Below, piece by piece: positions 4,392 to 16,189 of a stretch of 64,000 bases of DNA (positions are counted from its first letter, which is position 1; each line of letters opens with the position of its first letter). Made by a program: the position numbers and the translations under genes. Source of the stretch: Bosea sp. OAE506 (GTDB taxonomy: Bacteria; Pseudomonadota; Alphaproteobacteria; Rhizobiales; Beijerinckiaceae). The notes under the pieces were generated by a model, which saw only the letters and a program-made list of their open reading frames with translations, did no database searches and was not told where the DNA came from. The stretch lies in the NCBI RefSeq assembly GCF_040546595.1, contig NZ_JBEPOB010000001.1:2109001-2173000 (forward strand), given 5' to 3'.

Positions 4392-5195
4392 CTAGGAGCG
4401 CCCCGTCTCGCGTGCAGGAAGCGGGTGTCCGAGCGTCACGTTCGGTTGCAGCGGCGGCGAATGCCGGACGAGCGGGATGCGCTTCAGCACCAGTCTCAGC
4501 GCATGCCAGTGGATGGCGAGCGTGACCTTCAGCGTCAGCAGGGGGTGGCTCGCCAGGAGGCCGAGCAGCGCGCTGTCGGAGATGGGCTGCCTCTCGCCGC
4601 TCATCGTTGCCGCGATCAGCCGCCCCTCGGCGTCGGAGCCGTCGATAGAGACGGACATCGTGGCCGCCGGTGGCGCCACCGCAAAGCGATAGTCCATGGC
4701 GAGGTTCATGAAGGGCGAGACATGGAAGCGCTTCGGGGCTTCCTGGGCGACCGGGCCGTCCGTCTCCACGACTTTCGAGACATAGCTGTGCGTCTCGCCG
4801 AAGGTGTTGTGCACCTCGTAGACGATCCCCATCAGCGTGCCGTCGCGGCGGTGGCAGAACCAGGTGCTGAGCGGATTGAAGGCGTAGCCCAGGATGCGTG
4901 GCATGGTGAGCAGGCGGATCGGCCCGCCATCGGGATCGAGCCCCGCCTCGCGCAGCAGGGCCTCGACCTGCGGGCGCAAGGGCGCGCCGGTGCGGTCGCC
5001 GTAGTCGGCATCGCGGAAGGCGTAGAGATTTAAGCGGTTGCGGGAGAAGACGCGCAGCCGCTGCGCGAGGCCGTCGATCTCGTCGAGATCGAGCAGCATC
5101 CAGAAAACACGATAGGCGAGCTTGTGCCGGCGCGGCCGAAACCGCAGGTGCCGCACCCGGCCGACATACAGCGCCGAGGCGGTCTCCGTCGTCAT
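4392..5195 (-). CDS. DUF1365 domain protein
   Basis: A 267-residue protein that matches DUF1365 along its whole length: the N-terminal YVGRVRHLRFRPRRHKLAYRVF block, then RLLTMPRILGYAFNPLSTWF at about residues 93-112, and EVHNTFGETHSY. DUF1365 genes sit beside an FAD amine-oxidase-like gene and CFA-like methyltransferases in the sigma-E (singlet oxygen) regulons of alphaproteobacteria. Its start overlaps the stop of the FAD gene by ATGA, so translation is coupled. Placement next to lipid-modifying enzymes suggests membrane fatty acid chemistry; DUF1365 is one of the families to test for the oxygen-inserting or desaturating step of furan fatty acid synthesis. That role is inference. Confidence 0.9.
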   Translation of the reverse strand: MTTETASALYVGRVRHLRFRPRRHKLAYRVFWMLLDLDEIDGLAQRLRVFSRNRLNLYAFRDADYGDRTGAPLRPQVEALLREAGLDPDGGPIRLLTMPRILGYAFNPLSTWFCHRRDGTLMGIVYEVHNTFGETHSYVSKVVETDGPVAQEAPKRFHVSPFMNLAMDYRFAVAPPAATMSVSIDGSDAEGRLIAATMSGERQPISDSALLGLLASHPLLTLKVTLAIHWHALRLVLKRIPLVRHSPPLQPNVTLGHPLPARETGRS

Positions 5196-6544
5196 GCCGC
5201 GCGTTCCAGCCCCGCCGTCACCGGCGTGCGGACGATCCTGCCGGAGTCGTCTGCCACGTTCCAGGGGCGTTTCAGACCGCCGAGATCCTCCGCGACCGCG
5301 AGGCCGGCCTGCAGGCCGTCCTCGTGGAAGCCGGCGCCGAAATGCGCACCGCAGAACCAGGTGTTCCGGCCGCCCTGCAGCGACCAGAGCCGCTCCTGCG
5401 CGGCCAGGGCCGGCCCGTCGAAGATCGGGTGCTCGTACATCTCCTCGCGCAGCACCGTGCCAGGGGCCGGATCGCGCGGCGGGTTGAGGGTGACGAAGAG
5501 GGGCTGCTCGGTTTCGAGACCCTGGAGCAGGTTCATCCAGTAGGTGACGGCACAGGGTGCGTCCGGCGCCCTGCGCTCGCCGAGATGGTTCCAGCTCGCC
5601 CAGGCGTTGCGGCGGCGCGGCATCAGCGTCGCATCGGTGTGCAGGATGGCGCGGTTGCAGCTGTAGCGGAACGCGCCCAGCAGAGTCGTCTCCTCGGCCG
5701 AGGGATCGGCGAGCATCGCCAGCGCCTGGTCGGCATGGGTCGCCAGCACGACGTGGTCGAACCCGCGTACCTCGCCATCCACGGTCTCGACGCTCACGCC
5801 GCTCTCGAGGCGGGTCACCTGCCGCACGGCGTTGCCCAGCACGATGTCACCGCGAAACGCCTCACGCAGACGCTTGACATAAGAGCGGCTGCCGCGATCG
5901 ACCGTGCGCCAGACCGGGCGATTGGTCAGCTTCAGCAGGCCGTGATTGTGGTGGAAGCGGATGAAGGCGGCCGCGGGGTAGGACAGCATCTCGTTGCAGG
6001 GGGCCGACCAGATCGCAGCCGCCATGGGCAGAAGGTGGTCCTCGCGGAACGCCTGGCCATAGCGGCCGGCATCGAGATAATCGCCGAGCGACTGGCCGGC
6101 GAGCGCCGAAGACTGCGCGTCCCGCGTCGCCTGGGCATAGAAGCGGCGCAGGTCTGACAGCATCGACCAGAAGCGCGGGCTGAGCAGGTTGAGACGCTGG
6201 GCGAACAGGCCCGACAGGCTGGTGCCGCTGTATTCCAGCCGGCCCTCGTCGAGCGAGACGGCGAACGACATCTCGGTCGCCTTGGTGGCAACGCCCAGAT
6301 GGGCCATCAGCGCGGTGAAGTTGGGATAGGTCGCCTCGTTGTAGACGATGAAGCCGGTGTCGACCGGGACATCCCCGCCACTGCGCTGCGCGACATCGAC
6401 CGTGTTGGCGTGCCCGCCCAGCCGCGGCGCGCTCTCATAAAGCGTGACGTCATGTCGCTGCGACAGCAGCCAGGCGCTTGAGAGCCCCGAGATACCGGAG
6501 CCAATGACGGCGATACGGAGGGGCTGGGGAAAGGAGCCGTGCAT
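5192..6544 (-). CDS. FAD/NAD-binding amine-oxidase-like protein (COG2907)
   Basis: A 450-residue flavoprotein. The dinucleotide-binding motif is GSGISG at residues 15-20, followed by SSAWLLSQRHDVTLYE with the ribose-binding Glu, then GGHANTVD. This is the COG2907 'predicted NAD/FAD-binding' family that travels with DUF1365 and CFA-like genes. In Rhodobacter sphaeroides members of such clusters belong to the sigma-E regulon and to the furan fatty acid pathway (UfaD is a desaturase), so a phospholipid acyl desaturase role is plausible but inferred. The start at 6544 is chosen because homology begins at once; the frame is open to 6745 without similarity. A candidate sigma-E promoter on this strand lies at 6574-6602. 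Confidence 0.88.
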   Translation of the reverse strand: MHGSFPQPLRIAVIGSGISGLSSAWLLSQRHDVTLYESAPRLGGHANTVDVAQRSGGDVPVDTGFIVYNEATYPNFTALMAHLGVATKATEMSFAVSLDEGRLEYSGTSLSGLFAQRLNLLSPRFWSMLSDLRRFYAQATRDAQSSALAGQSLGDYLDAGRYGQAFREDHLLPMAAAIWSAPCNEMLSYPAAAFIRFHHNHGLLKLTNRPVWRTVDRGSRSYVKRLREAFRGDIVLGNAVRQVTRLESGVSVETVDGEVRGFDHVVLATHADQALAMLADPSAEETTLLGAFRYSCNRAILHTDATLMPRRRNAWASWNHLGERRAPDAPCAVTYWMNLLQGLETEQPLFVTLNPPRDPAPGTVLREEMYEHPIFDGPALAAQERLWSLQGGRNTWFCGAHFGAGFHEDGLQAGLAVAEDLGGLKRPWNVADDSGRIVRTPVTAGLERAA

Positions 6545-6573
6545 GAACCGACCTTTGTCGCGGCAGACCGAAG

Positions 6574-6602
6574 GGTTACGACCGGCCGTCCCAAACGGTT
6601 CA
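6574..6602 (-). promoter_or_regulatory. Candidate ECF11/sigma-E promoter for the FAD-DUF1365 operon
   Basis: On the minus strand TGAACC (6602-6597) is followed after exactly 18 bases by TAACC (6578-6574). The RpoE-ChrR family recognises TGATCC-N18-TA type promoters, so this is a one-mismatch match with the expected spacing. The predicted transcript would start near 6568, about 24 bases before the ATG at 6544. The facing promoter at 6685 has the same spacing, which strengthens both. Confidence 0.5.
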
Positions 6603-6684
6603 GTCTTTATCCTTAGGGCAGGGAATGGTAGCCGGTCCTCCAGCCACCGTCCCGGGAGGGAGATGGCATTCGCGGCTGGCGTTC

Positions 6685-6713
6685 TGATCCAGATGCGAAC
6701 GGGCCGCGTAGAA
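6685..6713 (+). promoter_or_regulatory. Candidate ECF11/sigma-E autoregulatory promoter
   Basis: TGATCC at 6685-6690, then 18 bases, then TAGAA at 6709-6713. This fits the TGATCC-N18-TA promoter known for the RpoE-ChrR family and lies just upstream of the sigma-factor gene, as expected for autoregulation. Transcription would begin near 6718-6720, giving a leader of about 80 bases to ATG 6800, or an almost leaderless message if the in-frame ATG at 6719 is used. Confidence 0.6.
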
Positions 6714-6799
6714 GGGCCATGTTCGCAACGCCCGCAACAGGACAAAAGTCACGAGCCTCGGTTCCGGCCGGGGTGCGGAGAGGTTCGATCACCGTCCCC

Positions 6800-7342
6800 A
6801 TGGATGCAGACGCCCTTGTTCAGGCCATCGCGTCTTCCGCCGACCGCCAAGCCTTCGCGCGACTGTTCGACCATTTCGCGCCGCGTGTAAAAGGGCTGCT
6901 GATGCGGGGCGGCACTCCGCCGGATCTGGCGGAGGAGCTGGCGCAGGAAACGCTGATGACGGTCTGGCGCAAGGCGGCGCTGTTCGACCCCGCCAAGGCC
7001 GGCGCCAGCACCTGGATTGCGACGATCGCGCGCAATCTCAGGATCGATTACGCAAGGCGGGAGAAGCGCTCGCGCCTCTCGCAGGTCTTCGACATCCTCG
7101 AGGATGAAGAGGGGCCGGAGCAGCCCGATGACGTGCTCTCCGGATCCGAACGCGACGCGCGGGTTCGCGTCGCGCTCAAGGGACTGTCCAAAGAGCAATA
7201 CAGAGTCGTCGAACTCGCCTTCCTCGAGGGCTTCAGCCACCAGGACGTGGCCAACAAGCTTTCGATCCCGCTCGGAACGGTGAAGTCGCGGCTAAGACTG
7301 GCCATGGCGCATCTGCGCCGACATCTGGAGGATCTGCGATGA
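6800..7342 (+). CDS. rpoE: ECF sigma factor, RpoE/ECF11 type (singlet-oxygen response)
   Basis: A 180-residue sigma-70-family factor. Region 2 covers about residues 15-90 (RQAFARLFDHFAPRVKGLL, AEELAQETLMTVW, ARNLRIDYARR). Region 4 covers about 120-175 (YRVVELAFLEGFSHQDVANK, then LGTVKSRLRLAMAHLRRHL). It is directly followed, with a 4-base overlap, by a ChrR-like anti-sigma gene, the hallmark of the ECF11 group that responds to singlet oxygen in alphaproteobacteria. I chose ATG 6800 because it gives the family's usual length; an in-frame ATG at 6719 would add 27 residues. It probably controls its own operon and the divergent FAD-DUF1365 pair through the paired promoters upstream. Confidence 0.92.
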   Translation: MDADALVQAIASSADRQAFARLFDHFAPRVKGLLMRGGTPPDLAEELAQETLMTVWRKAALFDPAKAGASTWIATIARNLRIDYARREKRSRLSQVFDILEDEEGPEQPDDVLSGSERDARVRVALKGLSKEQYRVVELAFLEGFSHQDVANKLSIPLGTVKSRLRLAMAHLRRHLEDLR

Positions 7343-7968
7343 ACGCCCGGCATCTCCCGTCGGACGAGACCTTGGCCGGCTTCGCCGCAGGCCGGCTCGA
7401 CGAAGGCATGTCGCTCGTGGTCGCGGCGCATGTCGAGATGAATGCCGCCGCCGCAAGGGCGCTGCGCGAGATCGAGGCGGTCGGCGGCGGGGTTCTGGCC
7501 ACCGGCGAAGCCGTGCCGATGCTCACCTCGGCGGAGGACGCGCTGGCTCGACTGGAGCGGGAGGGGCGCGATGTACCGGCCCCGGTCCGGCCGGTTGAGC
7601 GGGGACTCCCGCGCGTGCTGCAGCCCTACGAGCTCGGCCGCTGGCAGCCGATCGGGCTCGGCGTGGCGCTGCGCCGCGTCAATGTCCCCGGTGCCGAAGC
7701 GCGCGTCTTCATGCTGCGCGCGGCACCCGGAACGCGGCTGCCCGAGCATCGCCATAGCGGCCATGAGTGGACCACGATCCTGTCCGGCGCCTACGAGCAC
7801 GAATATGGCCGGTTTGCCCGCGGCGACTTCGACGAGGCGAACGAGAACCACGAGCACCACCCCCATGTCGATGCCGTGGAGGGCTGCACCTGCATCGTCG
7901 CGCTGACGGGTGAAGTGCAGTTCCGGGGCTGGCTCGGCCGGCTGCTGCAACCGCTGGTGCGGCTGTGA
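7339..7968 (+). CDS. chrR: ChrR-like anti-sigma factor with cupin C-terminal domain, zinc cysteines replaced
   Basis: A 209-residue protein of the ChrR family, which binds and silences its cognate ECF sigma factor until singlet oxygen triggers release. The N-terminal anti-sigma domain has His5 and His31, but the ZAS zinc motif H31-x3-C-x2-C is here H31-x3-N35-x2-A38, so both cysteine ligands are missing. The C-terminal cupin domain is intact, with H137, H139 and E143 (HRHSGHE), histidines at 171, 173, 174 and 176, and the CTC pair at 183-185. It overlaps the sigma gene by four bases and the next gene by GTGA. Loss of the zinc ligands suggests a different stability or release mechanism, or weakened inhibition. 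Confidence 0.88.
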   Translation: MNARHLPSDETLAGFAAGRLDEGMSLVVAAHVEMNAAAARALREIEAVGGGVLATGEAVPMLTSAEDALARLEREGRDVPAPVRPVERGLPRVLQPYELGRWQPIGLGVALRRVNVPGAEARVFMLRAAPGTRLPEHRHSGHEWTTILSGAYEHEYGRFARGDFDEANENHEHHPHVDAVEGCTCIVALTGEVQFRGWLGRLLQPLVRL

Positions 7969-8771
7969 CGGCGCTTTCGTTCCTGCTCGCGCTGGCGACC
8001 GTCGCAGTCGTGATGGTCGTGGCGATGACGGGAGCCTGGCTGGTCGAGCGGCGCACCGGCAATTCGGGCTGGATCGACTCGGTCTGGACCTTCGGTCTGG
8101 GGACAGCCGGTATGGTCGGCGCCCTGCTGCCCTTCGGTGCGGGGCCGATGTCGCGCCGCCTGCTCGTTGCAGGGCTCGCTGCGGCCTGGGCGCTGCGGCT
8201 GGGGCTGCATGTCGCCTCGCGCACCCGGGGCATCTCGGACGATCCGCGCTACGCCAAGCTGAAGCGCGACTGGGGGGCCGACAAAGACCGCCAGATGTTT
8301 CGCTTCCTGATGCTGCAGGCCCTCGCGAGCACGCCGCTGGCGATCGCGATCGTGCTGGCGGCGCATCATCCCGCGCCGACGCTCGGCCTGCAGGATCTCG
8401 TCGGCGTGCTGGTCTTCGCCATCGGCGTCGGGGGCGGCGCCATTGCCGACCGGCAGTTGCGGGCCTTCGCCCGTAATCCCGCCAACAAGGGCCGGATCTG
8501 CGACGAAGGGCTCTGGGCGTGGTCGCGCCATCCGAACTACTTCTTCGAATGCGTGCTGTGGAGCGCCTATCCCGTGATCGCCATTGCGGCGTCGGGCTAT
8601 GGCTTCGGCTTCGTCGCCCTGCTCGCACCGCTCGCGATGACACTGCTCCTGACGCGGATCTCCGGCATTCCGCCGCTCGAAGAGCACATGGTCGCCAAGC
8701 ATGGCGACGCCTACCGGGCCTATCAGCGGCGGACCAGCGCCCTGCTGCCTTGGCCTCCGGCCGCCGGCTGA
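7965..8771 (+). CDS. DUF1295 membrane protein (steroid 5-alpha-reductase-like fold)
   Basis: A 268-residue integral membrane protein with about seven hydrophobic segments. The DUF1295 signature is near the C-terminus: EGLWAWSRHPNYFFE at about residues 182-196, then the SGIPPLEEHM segment and a final YRAYQRRTSALLPW. The family is related to steroid 5-alpha-reductases and isoprenylcysteine methyltransferases. It starts with GTG overlapping the chrR stop (GTGA), so it is translationally coupled to the sigma/anti-sigma pair and probably sigma-E dependent. Its substrate is unknown; with two CFA-like methyltransferases nearby, a lipid substrate in the membrane is likely. Confidence 0.9.
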   Translation: MTALSFLLALATVAVVMVVAMTGAWLVERRTGNSGWIDSVWTFGLGTAGMVGALLPFGAGPMSRRLLVAGLAAAWALRLGLHVASRTRGISDDPRYAKLKRDWGADKDRQMFRFLMLQALASTPLAIAIVLAAHHPAPTLGLQDLVGVLVFAIGVGGGAIADRQLRAFARNPANKGRICDEGLWAWSRHPNYFFECVLWSAYPVIAIAASGYGFGFVALLAPLAMTLLLTRISGIPPLEEHMVAKHGDAYRAYQRRTSALLPWPPAAG

Positions 8772-8779
8772 GGTTTCCG

Positions 8780-9805
8780 ATGACGATACTCGACCACCTG
8801 GGCAACTGGGGCGAGCGTTTGCCGCTTCCGGATTTCGTCACCCGTGCCGGGATCGCGACGCTGGTCGGCCGCACCGACCGCAAGCTGCAGCAGGGCGACG
8901 CCCTGCCTGACAGCGACTTCGTCGCGTCGATGGGGAACTACCCCATCGCCCAGCATGCAGACGCCGCCAATGAGCAGCATTACGAGGTGCCCGCCGCCTT
9001 CTTCCAGGCCGTGCTCGGCGCCCGGCGCAAATATTCGTCCTGCTTTTACGAGACGGCTCAGACGACGCTGGACGAGGCCGAGGTCCGCGCGCTCGAACTC
9101 ACGCTCGAGCATGCCGATCTGCAGGACGGGCAGCGCATCCTCGAACTGGGCTGCGGCTGGGGCTCGCTGTCGCTGTTCATGGCGGAGAAGCTGCCCAGCG
9201 CCGAAATCCTCGCGGTGTCCAACTCCGCCTCGCAGCGAGCCTTCATCGAAGGCGAGATCGCAGCGCGTGGGCTCTCCAATTTGCGGGTCGTCACCGCGGA
9301 CATGAACGCCTTTTCGACCTTGGGCGGCTTCGATCGCATCGTGTCGGTCGAGATGTTCGAGCATATGGCGAACTGGACCGAGCTGCTCTCGCGTGCGCGC
9401 GGCTGGCTGAAGCCGGAGGGACGGCTGTTCCTGCATGTCTTCACCCACCGCTCGGCCTGCTACCGCTTCGATGTCGAGGACAAGTCGGACTGGATCGCGC
9501 AGCACTTCTTCACCGGTGGGCTGATGCCGAGCCGGCGCCTCGTGCATGGCTTCCCGGAGCTATTCGACGTCGAGTCGGAATGGCACTGGAGCGGCGAGCA
9601 TTACCAGCGGACCGCCGAGGACTGGCTCGTCAATTTCGACCGCAATCTCCCGGTCATCGACCCGATCCTGTCCCAGGTCTATGGCGCGGACGCGGCGCTC
9701 TGGCGCCGGCGCTGGCGGCTGTTCTTCCTCGCGACCAGCGGGCTGTTCGGCTATGCGGGCGGCGACTCTTGGGGCGTCGGCCATTACCGGCTGAAGCCGG
9801 CCTAG
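8780..9805 (+). CDS. CFA-synthase-like SAM-dependent fatty acid methyltransferase
   Basis: A 341-residue class I methyltransferase. The SAM-binding motif is LELGCGWG at residues 121-128, with VSVEMFEHM and RLFLHVFTHR further on, as in cyclopropane-fatty-acid synthases. The N-terminal region is short compared with Cfa. It starts eight bases after DUF1295 and so belongs to the sigma-E operon. Enzymes of this branch methylate unsaturated phospholipid acyl chains; in the alphaproteobacterial furan fatty acid pathway two such enzymes are known, UfaM (first methyl) and FufM (second methyl). Which one this is cannot be decided without alignment. It ends four bases into the convergent DUF2177 gene. 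Confidence 0.88.
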   Translation: MTILDHLGNWGERLPLPDFVTRAGIATLVGRTDRKLQQGDALPDSDFVASMGNYPIAQHADAANEQHYEVPAAFFQAVLGARRKYSSCFYETAQTTLDEAEVRALELTLEHADLQDGQRILELGCGWGSLSLFMAEKLPSAEILAVSNSASQRAFIEGEIAARGLSNLRVVTADMNAFSTLGGFDRIVSVEMFEHMANWTELLSRARGWLKPEGRLFLHVFTHRSACYRFDVEDKSDWIAQHFFTGGLMPSRRLVHGFPELFDVESEWHWSGEHYQRTAEDWLVNFDRNLPVIDPILSQVYGADAALWRRRWRLFFLATSGLFGYAGGDSWGVGHYRLKPA

Positions 9806-10215
9806 AGCCACCCCCAGCCGCGCATCGTCACGACGCCGGCATAGGCGGCGAGCGTCGACACGCCGGCCACCAGGCTGCCATAGGCGAGGTCCGCCATGGT
9901 GATACCCAGCGTCCAGCGCCGGAGCGTGGCGTAGTTGGTGAGGTCGTAGGTTCCGTAGGCCAGCAGGCCGAGCAGGGCGCCGTTGACGAAGGCCGCCATC
10001 GCCGAGCCGCCAGCCAGGGCGGGCATCAGCGCAAAATGGATCAGCCCGGCCGGGAAGGCGAAATAGAACAGCAGGGCCGGCACCCAGCGGATCTTCTCCA
10101 GCAGGGCATCGCCCAAAGCCGGCCGGTAGAGCGCCCCCGCCATCAGCGAGAGCCAGATCACATCGATCACCCCGAAGACGAGCAGGAAGACGAGGTAGCC
10201 TGCAAGGAAGGTCAT
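9802..10215 (-). CDS. DUF2177 family membrane protein
   Basis: A 137-residue protein with four transmembrane segments and the DUF2177 features: the FGVIDVIWLSLMA segment at about residues 14-26, a central hydrophobic FYFAFPAGLIHFAL segment, GLLAYGTYDLTNYATL at about 84-99 and an AYGSLVAG segment. Function is unknown. In several alphaproteobacteria DUF2177 genes occur with ECF sigma factors and CFA-like genes, which fits this island. It converges on the methyltransferase gene with a four-base overlap of coding ends and is divergent from the CFA synthase gene, with 213 bases between. Confidence 0.85.
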   Translation of the reverse strand: MTFLAGYLVFLLVFGVIDVIWLSLMAGALYRPALGDALLEKIRWVPALLFYFAFPAGLIHFALMPALAGGSAMAAFVNGALLGLLAYGTYDLTNYATLRRWTLGITMADLAYGSLVAGVSTLAAYAGVVTMRGWGWL

Positions 10216-10428
10216 TCTGCTCTCCGGATTGTGTCGTCGTGATACGTCGAGGTCGGGGCTGCAGATCGCGTCCCGGACGGGTTCAAGTCTGCATTCGCAA
10301 ATCTGTTTGCCGTGTCGCAGCGTATGGAGTCACAAAACCACCAACGGCGAAGGATGCGTGGCAGCAAGCCCCTGCCTCCAACGTTCGGACCGGGGTGGCG
10401 TTCCAGCGGAAACGGTCGGACACTGGCG

Positions 10429-11685
10429 ATGACAGATGAAGTACGGCAGCAGCCTCAGGATCGTCGGGCACGCAGCGGCACCGATTGGAGCTTAGGACTG
10501 TCGCGAGCCTTCCTGGCGAAGCTGATGGCGCGGCTGGCGCGGGGCCGACTGACGGTTGTGACGCCCGACGGGTCGGTGATCGTGCAACAGGCGCCGGAGC
10601 CCGGACCAGAGGCGGTGATCGTGCTCAAGCGCTGGCGGGCGATCCGCCGGCTCGTGCTGCAAGCCGATATCGGCTTCGCGCGCGCCTATTGCGACGGCGA
10701 TTTCAGCAGCCCGGACATGACGGCGGTGATCGAGCTCGCGGCGGTCAACGACCACACGCTGCGCGCCCTGATCTCGGGAAGCTGGCCGGCCCGCCTGCTG
10801 ACGCGGATGCTGCATCTGGGGCGCGCCAATACGCGCCGCGGCAGCAAGCGCAACATCACCGCCCATTACGATCTCGGCAATGCCTTCTATGCGCAGTGGC
10901 TTGACGAGAGCATGACCTACTCCTCGGCGCTCTACACGCAGCCCGGCCAGACGCTCGAGCAGGCCCAGACCGCCAAGCTCGACCTGATCGTCGAGCGGCT
11001 CCAGCTCAAGGGCGGAGAGCGCGTGTTGGAGATCGGCTGCGGCTGGGGGGCTCTGGCGGAGCGGCTGGCGCGCGAAGGCTGCCATGTCACCGGCATCACG
11101 CTCTCGCCGTCGCAGCTGGCCTATGCGCAGAAGCGCCTGGCGGATGCCGGCCTTGCCGAGCAGGTCGATCTGCGGCTGCAGGACTATCGCGACGTGACCG
11201 GCCAGTTCGACCGCATCGTCTCGATCGAGATGATCGAGGCGGTCGGCCGCGAGTTCTGGCCCGCCTATTTCGCGACGCTGCGCAACTGCCTGAAGCCGGA
11301 TGGCCGCATCGTGTTGCAGGCGATCACGATCGAAGACAGCCGCTTCGCCTCCTATGCGAGCGGCGCCGACTTCATCCAGCACTACATCTTCCCGGGCGGG
11401 CTGCTGCCGTCGCACAGCGCCATGAACGAGCAGATCACCGCGGCAGGACTGAACCTCGCCGACCGCTTCAGCTTCGGCGACAGCTACGCGCTGACGCTGC
11501 AGGAATGGCGCCGGCGCTTCCTGGTGCAGTGGCAGTCGATCCGCCCGCTCGGCTTCGACGAGCCGTTCCGCCGGCTCTGGGAGTTCTATCTCTGCTATTG
11601 CGAGGGCGGCTTCCGCAGCGCGGCCACCGATGTCGGCCTGTTCGCGATCACCGTGAGCGACGGCAAGGCGAAGGCCGTCGCCTGA
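10429..11685 (+). CDS. cfa: Cyclopropane-fatty-acyl-phospholipid synthase family protein
   Basis: A 418-residue protein with full Cfa architecture: an N-terminal lipid-binding region (about 1-130), then NITAHYDLGNAFYAQWLD at 142-159, the SAM motif VLEIGCGWG at 199-207 and IVSIEMIEAVG. A C-terminal catalytic core follows with HYIFPGGLLPS and the C-terminal FYLCYCEGGF. Cfa transfers a methylene from SAM to unsaturated acyl chains of membrane phospholipids; the close relative UfaM transfers a methyl group instead and starts furan fatty acid synthesis. ATG 10429 is chosen because the upstream frame to 10312 lacks similarity; no strong Shine-Dalgarno sequence is visible. It is the second CFA-like enzyme in the island. 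Confidence 0.9.
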   Translation: MTDEVRQQPQDRRARSGTDWSLGLSRAFLAKLMARLARGRLTVVTPDGSVIVQQAPEPGPEAVIVLKRWRAIRRLVLQADIGFARAYCDGDFSSPDMTAVIELAAVNDHTLRALISGSWPARLLTRMLHLGRANTRRGSKRNITAHYDLGNAFYAQWLDESMTYSSALYTQPGQTLEQAQTAKLDLIVERLQLKGGERVLEIGCGWGALAERLAREGCHVTGITLSPSQLAYAQKRLADAGLAEQVDLRLQDYRDVTGQFDRIVSIEMIEAVGREFWPAYFATLRNCLKPDGRIVLQAITIEDSRFASYASGADFIQHYIFPGGLLPSHSAMNEQITAAGLNLADRFSFGDSYALTLQEWRRRFLVQWQSIRPLGFDEPFRRLWEFYLCYCEGGFRSAATDVGLFAITVSDGKAKAVA

Positions 11686-11710: not shown

Positions 11711-14700
11711 TCAGCCGCGGCCCAGCAGCGCTGCGATCTTCGCGACCGCGGCTGCCAGGTGGCTCGGCTGATAGGGCTTCACCACCAGCGCAGTCCTGTC
11801 GTCGATCTCGACGCCCTCGACGCGCGAATGCCCGGTGGCGAAGACCACCGGCAGGTCCGGTCGCTTCTCGCGCGCCCTGGCGACGAGCACCGTTCCCGGC
11901 ATGTCAGGCAGACCGACATCGGTTAGCAGGATGTCGACATGCGCCTTGTCCAGCATGGCGAGCGCGTCACGGGCCAGCCCCGTCTCGATGACCGAGTGGC
12001 CGAGATCCTCGAGCATGTCGACGGTCGCCATGGCGATCAGGGCGTCGTCCTCGCAGAGCAGGATCGAGAGCTTGCGCTCCGCGACCGGTGCCGGAGCCGG
12101 CTCCGCGGCCGGGGGAAGCTCGGTCGCCTGCCGCTGCTGCGCGGCATTGGCGAGCTGGTGGCGCACCTTCCGGGCGAGCTGCTCCAGCGAATAGGGCTTG
12201 CTGAGCAGCTCGACGCCCTCGTCGAGCCGTCCCTCATGGACGATCGAATTCTCGGTGTAGCCCGAGGTGAACAAAACCTTCAGCCCGGGCAGGCGCTCGA
12301 CCGCCTTGCGCGCGAGTTCCGTGCTCTTCATCGGGCCCGGCATCACCACATCGGTGAAGAGCAGGTCGATCGGGATGCCGCTCTCGACGATGGCGAGCGC
12401 CGATTTCGCATCCGGCGCCTGCAGGACCCGATAGCCGAGATCCGTCAGCGTCTCGATGACCGTCTCGCGAACGCCCTTGTCGTCTTCCGCGACGAGGATG
12501 GTCTCGGTACCGCCGGCGATCGGGCCTGAATCCAGGGTGACGAGCTCGTCCTCGCCCTCGGCCGAGCGGGGCAGATAGAGGCGGATCGTGGTGCCCTCGC
12601 CGGGCTCGCTGTAGATCTTCACATGCCCGCCGGATTGCTTGACGAAGCCGTAGACCATGGAGAGCCCGAGCCCCGTGCCCTTGCCCTCGGGCTTGGTGCT
12701 GAAGAAGGGATCGAAGACCTTGTCGACGATCTCGGGCGGGATGCCGGAGCCGGTGTCGGTGACCGCGAGCATGACGTAGCGGCCCGGCGTGACATCGGGA
12801 TGGGCGCGGGCATAAATGCTATCGAGCACCGCGTTGCCGGCCTCGATCGTCAGTTTGCCGCGGCCCTCCATGGCGTCGCGGGCGTTGATAGCGAGATTGA
12901 GCAGGGCGTTCTCGACATTGCTGGGGTCGACCAGCGTGTTCCAGAGCCCGCCGGCGACGACGCTCTCGATCTCGATCGTCTCGCCGAGCGCGCGCCGCAG
13001 CATCTCGTCCATGCCGCGGATGAGCTTGCCGAGATTGATGACCTTGGGCGCCAGAGGCTGGCGCCGTCCGAAGGCCAGCAGCTGCGAGGCGAGCCGGGAC
13101 CCACGGGCCACGCCCTCCATCGCGTTCTGGATGCGGCGGGCCGCCCTCTCATTGCCGGCTACGTCGCGGGCGAGGAGCTGGAGGTTGCCGCTGACGACCT
13201 GCAGGAGGTTGTTGAAGTCATGGGCGACGCCGCCGGTGAGCTGGCCGATCGCCTCCATCTTCTGGGCCTGCCGCAGGGCGGCCTCGCTGCTGGCCAGCGC
13301 GGCGGCGGCTTCCGTTTCCGCCGTGATGTCGCGGCCGAAGGCGTAGATCGTGTCGCCGTCGGGCACGCTCGTCCAGGCGATCCGGCGCCGGCCGCCATCG
13401 GCGGTCAGGATCACGCTTTCGGAGGACATGATCGGGGCGCCCTCGGCGAGCCGGGCGAGGCGCGCGGCAGCCGCCTCGCGATCTGCCGCCTCGACGAAAT
13501 CGAGGATCGTCCGGCCGATGGTCTCGGTGGGGGACCAGCCGAGGACCTTTGTCCATGTCGGGTTCGCGGCGGTCACGGTGCCGTCGCGCGCGGCGACGAC
13601 CTTGAGCACGGGCGAGAGGTTCCAGATCCGGTCGCGGTCGCGGGTGGCGCGCCGCTCTTCGGTGATGTCGCGGCCGATGGCGTGGATGCGCCCGTCATCC
13701 GGTACGGCGGTCCAGTCGAGCAGGCGGTAGCTGCCATCCCGGCAGCGATAGCGGTTCTCGAAGGCCAGCGTCGTGGCGCCATGCGAGAGCTTGAGGACCT
13801 CGGCGGCCGTGCTGTCGAGGTCGTCGGGATGGACGAAGTCCGCGAGGGGGCGGCCCACCATCTCGCATTCGGTCCAGCCGAGCAGGCGTTCGGCCGAGGG
13901 ATTGACCGCCGTGACGAGGCCTTCGTAGTCGCAGACCAGCATCAGCTCCTGCGACAGCTTCCACAGCCGGTCGCGGTCCCGCGTGGTCTCGACCTCGGCG
14001 AGCTTCTGCTCGTGGATGTCCGTGTTGGTTCCGATCCAGCGGATGATCTCGCCCTCGCCGGTGCGGATCGGCACAGCGCGGACGAGGTGCCAGCGGAATT
14101 CGCCGGCCGCGCTGCGGATGCGGAACTCGGTCTCGTAGCGGTCGCCGGAGGTCAGCGCTTCCTGCCACAGCTTGACCGCGGCATCGCGATCGTCGGGATG
14201 GACGATGGCGATCCAGGCCTCGCCCAGCAGTTCCTGGGGTTCGCGGCCGCTGTATTCGGTCACGCGCTCGTTGAACCAGTCGAGCCGGCCGTCGGCAGGC
14301 GCTGTCCAGACATGGTTCGGCATCGCCTGGGCGAAGGTGCGGAACTGCGTCTCGCTGGCGCGGATCGCTTCCTGCGCGACGATGCGGTCCGAAACATCGA
14401 TGCCGTCGACGAAGATGCCGGTGACCGTGCCCGAAGCGTCGGCGATGGGCTGGAAGACGAAATCGACGAAGCGCGTATAGGACGGCCCGCCATCCGGATG
14501 GCGCGCCTGGAAGCGCGCGCCCGAGGCGCGATAGGCCACGCCGCTGGCGAAGACGTCGTCGAGGATGCGGACATAGCCCTGCTCGGCGGCGTCGGGGAGG
14601 GCTTCGGCAACCGTCCTGCCCATCACGTCGCGACGGCCGATCAGATCCTGATAGGCTTCGTTGACGAGGGTGAAGCGGTGCTCGGGCCCTTCCAGCATCG

Positions 14701-15259
14701 CCATGAAGGAGGGCGCCTGCTCGTACATCTGCTGCAGCCGCAGACGCTCGTTGCGCAGCTGCCGGTCCGCCGTGACCTTCTCCGTCGTCTCGACGACGAT
14801 CGCGATGACACCGAGCGGGACGCCGTCGTCGCCGAGGATCGGAGAATAGTCGAGATTCATCCAGACCTGTGCCGGGCCTGCGCCGCGGTTCAGGGTCAGT
14901 TCCTGGTCCTTGTAGGAGAGCGTGCGGCCCTGCCGGAAAACAGTGCTGACGACATGGTCGTTGAAATCGGCGACCTCGGGCCAGCCCTTGCGGACCTCGG
15001 AGCCCAGCAGCTGCGGGTGGCGCGCGCCGGCGAAGCCGGAATAGGCGTCGTTATAGATCATGATGCCGGGCTCGCCCCAGAGCGTCACCATCGGCAGCGG
15101 CGAATGCAGGATCATGCCGACGACCGAGCGGACGGTGGCGGGCCAGGTCTCGATGGCACCGAGCGTGGTCGCGGACCAGTCGAACCGGGCGATCAGCCCG
15201 GCGAGCTCGCTGTCGCCCTTGAGGAACTGGAGAACCGGGGCAGGGTCGGCGTCGGGCAT
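11711..15259 (-). CDS. Hybrid sensor histidine kinase with five PAS domains and two receiver domains
   Basis: A 1182-residue soluble kinase without an obvious membrane segment. An N-terminal PAS-like domain (about 8-165, containing RFDWSATTLG and TWPATVRS) is followed by PAS domains at about 170-295, 300-420, 430-540 and 545-650. The HisKA phospho-acceptor is H680 in GGVAHDFNN, and the HATPase domain spans about 775-898 (NARDAMEG, GSGIPPEIV, GTGLGLSMV). Two receivers follow, with phospho-acceptor Asp970 (LLFTDVVMP) and Asp1114 (LLTDVGLPDM). There is no HPt domain, so a separate phosphotransfer protein or direct receiver output is needed. ATG 15259 fits the domain start; another in-frame ATG at 15382 would add 41 residues. 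Signal unknown. Confidence 0.9.
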   Translation of the reverse strand: MPDADPAPVLQFLKGDSELAGLIARFDWSATTLGAIETWPATVRSVVGMILHSPLPMVTLWGEPGIMIYNDAYSGFAGARHPQLLGSEVRKGWPEVADFNDHVVSTVFRQGRTLSYKDQELTLNRGAGPAQVWMNLDYSPILGDDGVPLGVIAIVVETTEKVTADRQLRNERLRLQQMYEQAPSFMAMLEGPEHRFTLVNEAYQDLIGRRDVMGRTVAEALPDAAEQGYVRILDDVFASGVAYRASGARFQARHPDGGPSYTRFVDFVFQPIADASGTVTGIFVDGIDVSDRIVAQEAIRASETQFRTFAQAMPNHVWTAPADGRLDWFNERVTEYSGREPQELLGEAWIAIVHPDDRDAAVKLWQEALTSGDRYETEFRIRSAAGEFRWHLVRAVPIRTGEGEIIRWIGTNTDIHEQKLAEVETTRDRDRLWKLSQELMLVCDYEGLVTAVNPSAERLLGWTECEMVGRPLADFVHPDDLDSTAAEVLKLSHGATTLAFENRYRCRDGSYRLLDWTAVPDDGRIHAIGRDITEERRATRDRDRIWNLSPVLKVVAARDGTVTAANPTWTKVLGWSPTETIGRTILDFVEAADREAAAARLARLAEGAPIMSSESVILTADGGRRRIAWTSVPDGDTIYAFGRDITAETEAAAALASSEAALRQAQKMEAIGQLTGGVAHDFNNLLQVVSGNLQLLARDVAGNERAARRIQNAMEGVARGSRLASQLLAFGRRQPLAPKVINLGKLIRGMDEMLRRALGETIEIESVVAGGLWNTLVDPSNVENALLNLAINARDAMEGRGKLTIEAGNAVLDSIYARAHPDVTPGRYVMLAVTDTGSGIPPEIVDKVFDPFFSTKPEGKGTGLGLSMVYGFVKQSGGHVKIYSEPGEGTTIRLYLPRSAEGEDELVTLDSGPIAGGTETILVAEDDKGVRETVIETLTDLGYRVLQAPDAKSALAIVESGIPIDLLFTDVVMPGPMKSTELARKAVERLPGLKVLFTSGYTENSIVHEGRLDEGVELLSKPYSLEQLARKVRHQLANAAQQRQATELPPAAEPAPAPVAERKLSILLCEDDALIAMATVDMLEDLGHSVIETGLARDALAMLDKAHVDILLTDVGLPDMPGTVLVARAREKRPDLPVVFATGHSRVEGVEIDDRTALVVKPYQPSHLAAAVAKIAALLGRG

Positions 15260-15460
15260 GCGGATCCGCCATTCAGGGCCATCGCGCCGGGCGGAATCCG
15301 GTGCGAGCCCCACCGCGGAGGCGATGTCGGGCACGAGACTTCTAGAGCATTGCCGGAACGGGAGGGAATTCGTTTTTTGCAAGCGACGGCAGAGGTTTCA
15401 TGCCCCGACGCATGGAACCAAATACCGCTTCATCCGTTAGGCGGCCCCGGTCCCCGCCTC

Positions 15461-16189
15461 TCAGGCCCGGAGCGGGCCGGCCATCGCAGGGGCGCCGAGC
15501 GGAAGCCAGGGCATCGCGCTGGTGCCGAAGATGGCAGCGCGCTCGTCCTCCCGGGCGCGAAAGAACGGGTACAGCCGTTCGACCCGGGGCGCTGCGCTGG
15601 CGTAGTCGAGCTGGGAGAGCATGACCGGCTTCGAAAGGCCTGGATAGAGCGTGGCCGGGGCGACGACGGTATTGCCCCAGAGCCGGCGGTAGAACGGATA
15701 ATGCTCGGGCCGGACGGCCGCGAGCATGATGTCCGCGCCGAAATGCTCCATGGCGAGCCAGGGCAGGCGCAGCGTCAGATAGGCGAGTTCCGGCAGGGCC
15801 CGCGACCAGAGCGGATCGGCGACGAAGCGGGTCGGGTCGACGAGAACATGACCGGCCTCGATCAGAGGCAGGACCGCATCGGGAAACACCTGCGCGGTCG
15901 GGATTTGCGGCAGGCCCGGCACGGTGATGCCGAGGCGGATGGCCCCCGCGAGATCGCCATCGGCATAGACGCCGAAGATCAGGCAGTTCGGATGGTCGTC
16001 GACTGGATCGGTGAAGCGCTCATCGTCGCTTTGCGCGATCGCGCCTTCGCGGAGATAGGCGCGGTAGCGCAGGTTGAAGACGCGGTCGCGGTCGTCCGCC
16101 GAGGTCGCGAGGCGGTATTCGATGCGCTCCAGCGACCGCAGGACGCGGTCGGCCAAGGAGGAGCCCGGGAGAGCGGCGGTTTCGACCAT
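15461..16189 (-). CDS. FeeM/LuxI-like N-acyl amino acid synthase (GNAT superfamily)
   Basis: A 242-residue protein with the autoinducer-synthase-like acyltransferase fold. Visible are the N-terminal VFNLRYRAYLREG block at about residues 37-49 (the conserved R..Y of the family), a DDHPNCLIFGVYADGDLAGAIR strand-helix segment, RFVADP, then LPWLAMEHFGADIMLAAVRP followed by HYPFYRRLWG. This pattern matches FeeM-type N-acyl amino acid synthases, which use acyl-ACP to make long-chain N-acyl amino acids, and is more distant from AHL synthases. A perfect 14-bp inverted repeat ends seven bases before the start codon and no clear Shine-Dalgarno sequence is seen. The upstream gene on the same strand encodes a GGDEF-EAL protein. 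A signal-molecule role is inferred. Confidence 0.7.
   Translation of the reverse strand: MVETAALPGSSLADRVLRSLERIEYRLATSADDRDRVFNLRYRAYLREGAIAQSDDERFTDPVDDHPNCLIFGVYADGDLAGAIRLGITVPGLPQIPTAQVFPDAVLPLIEAGHVLVDPTRFVADPLWSRALPELAYLTLRLPWLAMEHFGADIMLAAVRPEHYPFYRRLWGNTVVAPATLYPGLSKPVMLSQLDYASAAPRVERLYPFFRAREDERAAIFGTSAMPWLPLGAPAMAGPLRA

Follow-up and report, generated by a model that had tools for sequence, protein, structure and literature searches.

Furan fatty acids are antioxidant lipids that have been reported from microbes, plants, and fish. In the bacterial pathway described from Rhodobacter sphaeroides and Rhodopseudomonas palustris, UfaM methylates an 18:1 chain, UfaD (a flavin adenine dinucleotide (FAD) protein) desaturates it, and UfaO (a DUF1365 protein) inserts the oxygen; in R. 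palustris the second methyl group is added by FufM (RPA0924), which shares 26% identity with UfaM (PMC7380195), and AT4G33110 of Arabidopsis is a FufM look-alike (PMC10940516). The promoter consensus of ECF11, a group of extracytoplasmic function (ECF) sigma factors, is given as TGATCC-N16-CGTA (PMC5507510). Table 5 of a study on Chlamydomonas presents SAK1-dependent singlet-oxygen genes (104 by that paper's count), with log2 values in the wild type and in sak1 of 5.92 and 1.16 for CFA1, 4.05 and 0.18 for CFA2, 3.50 and 0.40 for DUF1365, 3.25 and 0.08 for DUF2177, and 3.04 and -0.16 for DUF1295; CFA2 appears in its Table 9 as CPLD27, a coclaurine N-methyltransferase (PMC4067076). The DUF1295 and DUF2177 genes of Chlamydomonas bear the identifiers Cre09.g401701 and Cre14.g629061. 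Our study concerns a locus in a 64 kb stretch of the genome of Bosea sp. OAE506 (contig NZ_JBEPOB010000001.1, positions 2,109,001 to 2,173,000; 64,000 nucleotides, hereafter the window), in which genes of these families stand together under a sigma-E/ChrR pair. We consider it probable that this ECF11-type island produces dimethyl furan fatty acids that act as antioxidants to protect the membrane from singlet oxygen, and that its DUF1295 protein is a reductase serving the dimethyl branch.

Gene content of the locus

Eight intact genes, identified by open reading frame (ORF) checks and family matches, lie within 7.3 kb at positions 4392 to 11685 of the window: DUF1365, an FAD oxidoreductase, an ECF sigma factor, ChrR, DUF1295, a first methyltransferase (MT1), DUF2177, and a second methyltransferase (MT2). 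The DUF1365 and FAD genes form a minus-strand operon with a 4-base overlap, divergent from the plus-strand run rpoE-chrR-DUF1295-MT1, whose members overlap by 4 and 4 bases and are then separated by an 8-base gap; beyond MT1 come the minus-strand gene DUF2177 and the plus-strand gene MT2. The Pfam E-values are all far better than the cut-offs: 3.6e-81 for DUF1365 (PF07103), 1.6e-22 for Amino_oxidase in the FAD protein (PF01593), 6e-16 for Sigma70_r2, 7.1e-14 for the ChrR cupin, 3.4e-62 for DUF1295, 1.1e-37 for DUF2177 (PF09945), and, for CMAS, 4.8e-39 in MT1 and 9.7e-88 in MT2. Since dozens of named genomes show largely the same gene set, the content of the island is not due to chance. The closest named relatives of the window's DUF1295 and DUF2177 proteins are Bosea proteins.

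Predicted enzymes of furan fatty acid synthesis

R. palustris JSC-3b served as a stand-in for R. sphaeroides and R. palustris CGA009, the sources of the characterised sequences. Its FAD-DUF1365-MT2 cluster, in which the UfaO-type protein lies between the UfaD and UfaM types, is 47, 46, and 47% identical to the corresponding window proteins. The full-length methyltransferase MT2 (10312..11685, plus strand; 10429 is a likelier start than 10312) is 36% identical to Escherichia coli Cfa, and its closest PDB match is the cyclopropane synthase 6bqc (1.1e-51). That of MT1 (8780..9805, plus strand; ORF open from 8519) is coclaurine N-methyltransferase (2e-61), and MT1 is 62% identical to the JSC-3b MT1, which is encoded in a DUF1295-MT1 pair far from the FAD-DUF1365-MT2 cluster, and 27% identical to the JSC-3b UfaM type. 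These two are the only strong CMAS-family genes of JSC-3b, the other four matches reaching at most 42.5 bits, and from this inventory we infer that the JSC-3b MT1 is the orthologue of RPA0924. In a tree of 59 proteins, the MT1 proteins, including the FufM-type protein of JSC-3b, form one side of a branch with support 100/100, and MT2 groups with the UfaM-type proteins adjoining DUF1365 (99/98); E. coli Cfa and two Bosea paralogues fall outside both clades.

The tree grouping, the JSC-3b gene inventory, and the identities together point to MT2 as a UfaM type, predicted to carry out the first methylation of the 18:1 chain, and to MT1 as a FufM type, predicted to carry out the second, from mono- to dimethylfuran. 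Identity and gene order likewise suggest that the FAD gene (5192..6544, minus strand; ORF open from 6745, with the ATG at 6544 used as start) encodes a UfaD-type desaturase of the methylated acyl chain, and the DUF1365 gene (4392..5195, minus strand) a UfaO-type protein whose predicted oxygen insertion would close the furan ring. A sequence-only reading of this DNA had proposed an eight-gene island of 7.3 kb with a first- and a second-methyl enzyme, and with FAD and DUF1365 proteins for desaturation and oxygen insertion. Our analyses agree with it: every ORF is open, the Pfam matches are strong, both enzyme assignments find support in the comparisons above, and both methyltransferases stand apart from E. 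coli Cfa, contrary to the grouping with ordinary Cfa that would have spoken against that reading.

Regulation and DUF2177

An ECF sigma factor gene of the RpoE/ECF11 type (6800..7342, plus strand; ORF open from 6719, with 6800 used as start) and the gene of the ChrR anti-sigma factor (7339..7968, plus strand) form an rpoE-chrR pair preceded by a perfect TGATCC-N16-CGTA site (6685..6710, plus strand), the combination that defines an ECF11 sigma-E/ChrR system. The ChrR protein exceeds the cut-off of TIGR02451 and has the cupin domain, in which the metal ligands, at what we take to be their positions, look kept. The cysteines of the zinc motif HxxxCxxC are missing from its N-terminal domain and from those of five close relatives (L162-L165, L167); the motif is present in 39 of the 52 ChrR rows, and the 13 without it include one that is a mere fragment. 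This absence bears on the mode of sensing, not on the identity of the protein as ChrR.

The perfect site before rpoE is the only one in the window, where 0.09 are expected, and the whole genome has six against one for the reversed control pattern. Sites with at most two mismatches number 59 in the window against 47 expected; it is therefore the position of the one-mismatch site facing the FAD gene (TGAACC-N16-CGTA, 6577..6602, minus strand), an ECF11-like candidate promoter of the FAD-DUF1365 operon, that makes the argument. We surveyed 160 fetched loci and the window for the perfect motif with spacings of 15-17. It stands upstream of 40/55 rpoE genes, 35/110 FAD matches, and 13/59 DUF2177 genes, and of 4/83 DUF1295, 3/51 chrR, 2/87 MT1, 1/88 MT2, and 1/111 DUF1365 genes; the background is 0.006 to 0.008 per upstream region. 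Of two control motifs, reversed or swapped, one gave 1/644 and the other 0/644.

DUF2177 (9802..10215, minus strand) is a four-helix membrane protein. For its relatives, the 13 motif-bearing genes compare with fewer than 0.5 expected, and the first base of each site lies 45-82 bp upstream of the start; with a looser motif, the counts are 15 of 49 near island genes and 1 of 9 away from them. In the window itself, the weak ECF11-like site before DUF2177 (CGATCT-N16-CGTA, 10243..10268, minus strand, two mismatches) is not better than chance on its own. In a sample of 142 evenly drawn alphaproteobacteria, DUF2177 occurs in 14, all of which have DUF1365 (present in 70; p 2e-5). The promoter motifs of its relatives place DUF2177 in the singlet-oxygen regulon. 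A second DUF2177 gene was observed in the same genome outside the window (G000:C1:3030044-3030477; L049, L110), with a perfect ECF11 site, one of the genome's six, 43 bp upstream of its family match.

Linkage of DUF1295 to FufM-type genes

The DUF1295 membrane protein (7965..8771, plus strand) is of a subtype carrying RHPNYFF. A scan of GTDB species genomes gave 577 FufM-related loci; among the best 80, which are the nearest and not all, DUF1295 is present in 64, DUF1365 in 55, FAD in 55, DUF2177 in 44, MT2 in 37, rpoE in 35, and chrR in 30. All 64 DUF1295 genes share the strand of MT1; 53 precede it and 11 follow it, and in 58 the ORF ends are at most 50 nt apart. These loci span three phyla and include Planctomycetota, one Verrucomicrobiota genome, Methylophilaceae, a gammaproteobacterium, and R. 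palustris; in 10 of them, R. palustris included, no further member of the set lies in range of the DUF1295-MT1 pair. All 16 loci without DUF1295 were traced into their genomes: in two Bradyrhizobium japonicum genomes a gene of the RHPNYFF type adjoins FAD and DUF2177, one locus ended at a contig edge with DUF1295 beside an MT1 fragment on another contig, nine Caulobacteraceae-type genomes and one planctomycete have the RHPNYFG type only, and three Bradyrhizobium genomes, which are also the three without DUF1365, have no full-length DUF1295.

The subtype count covers the 82 DUF1295 sequences of loci L082-L241. The RHPNYFF type makes up 59 of them (one reads FC), all in MT1 loci; RHPNYFG accounts for 19 (6 in MT1 loci, 1 in a DUF1365 locus, and 12 in neither), and RHPNYVF, RHPNYLF, or RHPNYLC for 4, all in MT1 loci. 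In every locus examined, RHPNYFF occurs only beside FufM or UfaD types. The sample of 142 alphaproteobacteria contains MT1 in 7 genomes and full-length DUF1295 in 17, of which 15 have DUF1365 (p 6e-4); the RHPNYFF kind is found in 5 of the 7 MT1 genomes against 0 of the 135 others (p 5e-8). A further 14 loci, which cover the partial DUF1295 matches and those weak ones that have a locus, show no RHPNYFF. In a DUF1295 tree (80 proteins, quick search), 54 MT1-linked and 2 FAD-linked proteins fall in one clade (support 98), and the linkage label changes at least three times on well-supported branches. Several gains would explain this, as would a single gain followed by losses; the occurrence of two gene orders and of a separate beta/gamma clade favours the former.

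The best-surviving alternative, to which we give a minor but real chance, is a plain UfaM-UfaD-UfaO-FufM island under sigma-E in which DUF1295 and DUF2177 share the regulation and help to protect the membrane but do not act on the furan lipid. FufM works in vitro without a partner (PMC7380195), DUF2177 is found outside the island as well, where it mostly lacks the motif, and the nine Caulobacteraceae-type genomes manage without a linked DUF1295; however, DUF1295 adjoins FufM rather than rpoE, the pair stands alone in the 10 loci mentioned, and the existence of both gene orders and the repeated linkage changes, whether gains or losses, also speak for a partnership.

We find it improbable that DUF1295 and MT1 make a methyl-branched saturated chain, by methylation and then reduction, with MT1 not being a furan methylase here. 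The pairing would follow by analogy the logic of 10-methylstearate synthesis in actinobacteria, which uses a methyltransferase and reductase pair, and one locus (L098 of genome G025, which is 86% complete) has the DUF1295-MT1 pair with no DUF1365 detected. Against this, MT1 tracks DUF1365: of the 25 MT1 loci without DUF1365 in range, 18 were followed into their genomes and 15 of these have it elsewhere, which brings the tally to 70 with DUF1365 among 73 loci or genomes checked. In addition, MT1 is the only strong CMAS gene of JSC-3b beside the UfaM type.

Predicted fold and activity of DUF1295

The structural model of DUF1295 has the fold of steroid-5-reductase and delta-14 sterol reductase, at about 15% identity. 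ICMT shares this fold, and DUF1295 could in principle be an S-adenosylmethionine-dependent methyltransferase of the ICMT/PEMT kind acting on a lipid head group or carboxyl group. We hold this to be improbable as well, given that reductases rank above methyltransferases in both comparisons, that Steroid_dh exceeds its cut-off in the window protein whereas ICMT and PEMT are not among its Pfam matches at E <= 0.001, and that the NY of the reductase-type site motif for reduced nicotinamide adenine dinucleotide phosphate (NADPH) is invariant in 84 of 84 DUF1295 sequences. The model, the motif, and the linkage suggest that DUF1295 is likely an NADPH-type membrane reductase of C=C bonds and the partner of FufM.

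Proposed mechanism

Starting from the observed gene content, grouping with R. palustris proteins, linkage, promoter motifs, and predicted fold, we infer all the individual reactions in this organism, and what DUF1295 acts on, as follows. Singlet oxygen or an organic peroxide would inactivate ChrR, and sigma-E would activate its own promoter together with that of the divergent FAD-DUF1365 operon. MT2 (UfaM) would methylate the 18:1 chain and the FAD protein (UfaD) would then desaturate it; DUF1365 (UfaO) would insert oxygen to give the monomethyl furan, to which MT1 (FufM) would add the second methyl. The product of the DUF1295 gene, which directly precedes MT1, would act on the dimethyl branch, most likely after oxidation of the ring. 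Furans react with singlet oxygen to give an unsaturated 1,4-dione, and this would be a conjugated ketone of the kind reduced by the steroid-5-reductase superfamily. DUF2177 would be a co-regulated small membrane protein outside the assigned steps. Database models and annotations would make the two methyltransferases ordinary cyclopropane synthases and the island a source of cyclopropane lipids, which is very improbable in view of the tree, the gene order, and the position of the two other Bosea paralogues outside both clades.

A bolder form of this mechanism is a regenerating cycle in which ring-opening of the dimethylfuran lipid by singlet oxygen yields the unsaturated 1,4-dione, DUF1295 with NADPH converts it to the saturated 1,4-dione, and Paal-Knorr loss of water, perhaps with the help of DUF2177, restores the furan, the gene set being common to bacteria and green algae. 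We regard this as speculative and doubtful; if true, the membrane quencher of singlet oxygen would be renewable rather than sacrificial.

In its core the island belongs to a known pathway and regulon and is unusually complete; new are the conserved partner of FufM, a reductase by type, and the ECF11 motifs that DUF2177 genes carry. Among the open-licence papers retrieved for DUF1295 or DUF2177, no title or abstract opening linked either family to furan lipids. The sequence-only reading had suspected both as undescribed parts of the pathway, and this suspicion now has backing from linkage and promoter motifs. The partner of the last known enzyme can be given as one specific, conserved gene, and it occurs in organisms in which deletion is routine, such as R. 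palustris.

Neighbouring genes and further regulon candidates

A DUF6134 protein recurs beside ufa genes (L197:3058-3801 and 36 other matches), and an ECF11 motif near 9 of the 37 matches makes it a further regulon candidate. An alpha/beta hydrolase resembling BD-FAE or carboxylesterases (L232:9084-10001 and 23 other matches) often lies between chrR and DUF1295, with an ECF11 motif near 1 of the 24; it might release oxidised acyl chains. The module also occurs on plasmids typed as conjugative in Rhizobium johnstonii 3841 and R. tropici CIAT 899 (L301, L303). TspO and DUF2147 genes accompany it on both plasmids, and pRL12 adds a gene for a lipocalin; no DUF1365 or UfaM-type gene appears in the pRL12 gene table, which is incomplete. 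In the window, a short-chain dehydrogenase is apparently split across two overlapping frames (246-1037 and 436-1023), by a frameshift or a sequencing error, and genes for a large PAS hybrid histidine kinase (11711-15382) and a FeeM-type N-acyl amino acid synthase (15461-16189) adjoin the island.

Comparison with known systems

The locus shares with the furan pathway of R. sphaeroides and R. palustris the same four enzyme types by family, identity, and gene order, and for the methyltransferases also by tree. It differs in having all four enzymes in one locus with the sigma factor, plus DUF1295 and DUF2177, whereas in R. sphaeroides ufaM (RSP2144) is apart from RSP1090-1091 and in R. palustris fufM (RPA0924) is apart from RPA2569-2571 (PMC7380195). 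With the ECF11 sigma-E/ChrR singlet-oxygen regulon it has in common the rpoE-chrR pair, the promoter consensus, and furan lipid genes as core targets; the window clade differs by a ChrR without the N-terminal zinc cysteines, and DUF1295, DUF2177, and DUF6134 are not among the names in the portions of PMC6852236 drawn on here. To the superfamily of steroid 5-alpha-reductase, delta-14 sterol reductase, and ICMT, the DUF1295 model is alike in fold and NY motif, differing by an identity of only about 15%.

The sigma-Ec operon smlt2375-smlt2367 of Stenotrophomonas maltophilia, likened here by description, contains an FAD protein, two CFA-type enzymes, a lipocalin, and two unnamed inner-membrane proteins, all induced on loss of chrR; it differs by an extra acyl-CoA desaturase, and furan is not mentioned in the main text of the paper (PMC11832516). 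Chlamydomonas is a eukaryote with another regulator, SAK1, and an FAD protein is not among the names in the passages of PMC4067076 drawn on here. Its singlet-oxygen list nevertheless contains, by name rather than by sequence, the families of five of the six non-regulatory island genes, and the recurrence of DUF1295 and DUF2177 there makes a cross-kingdom lipid defence testable.

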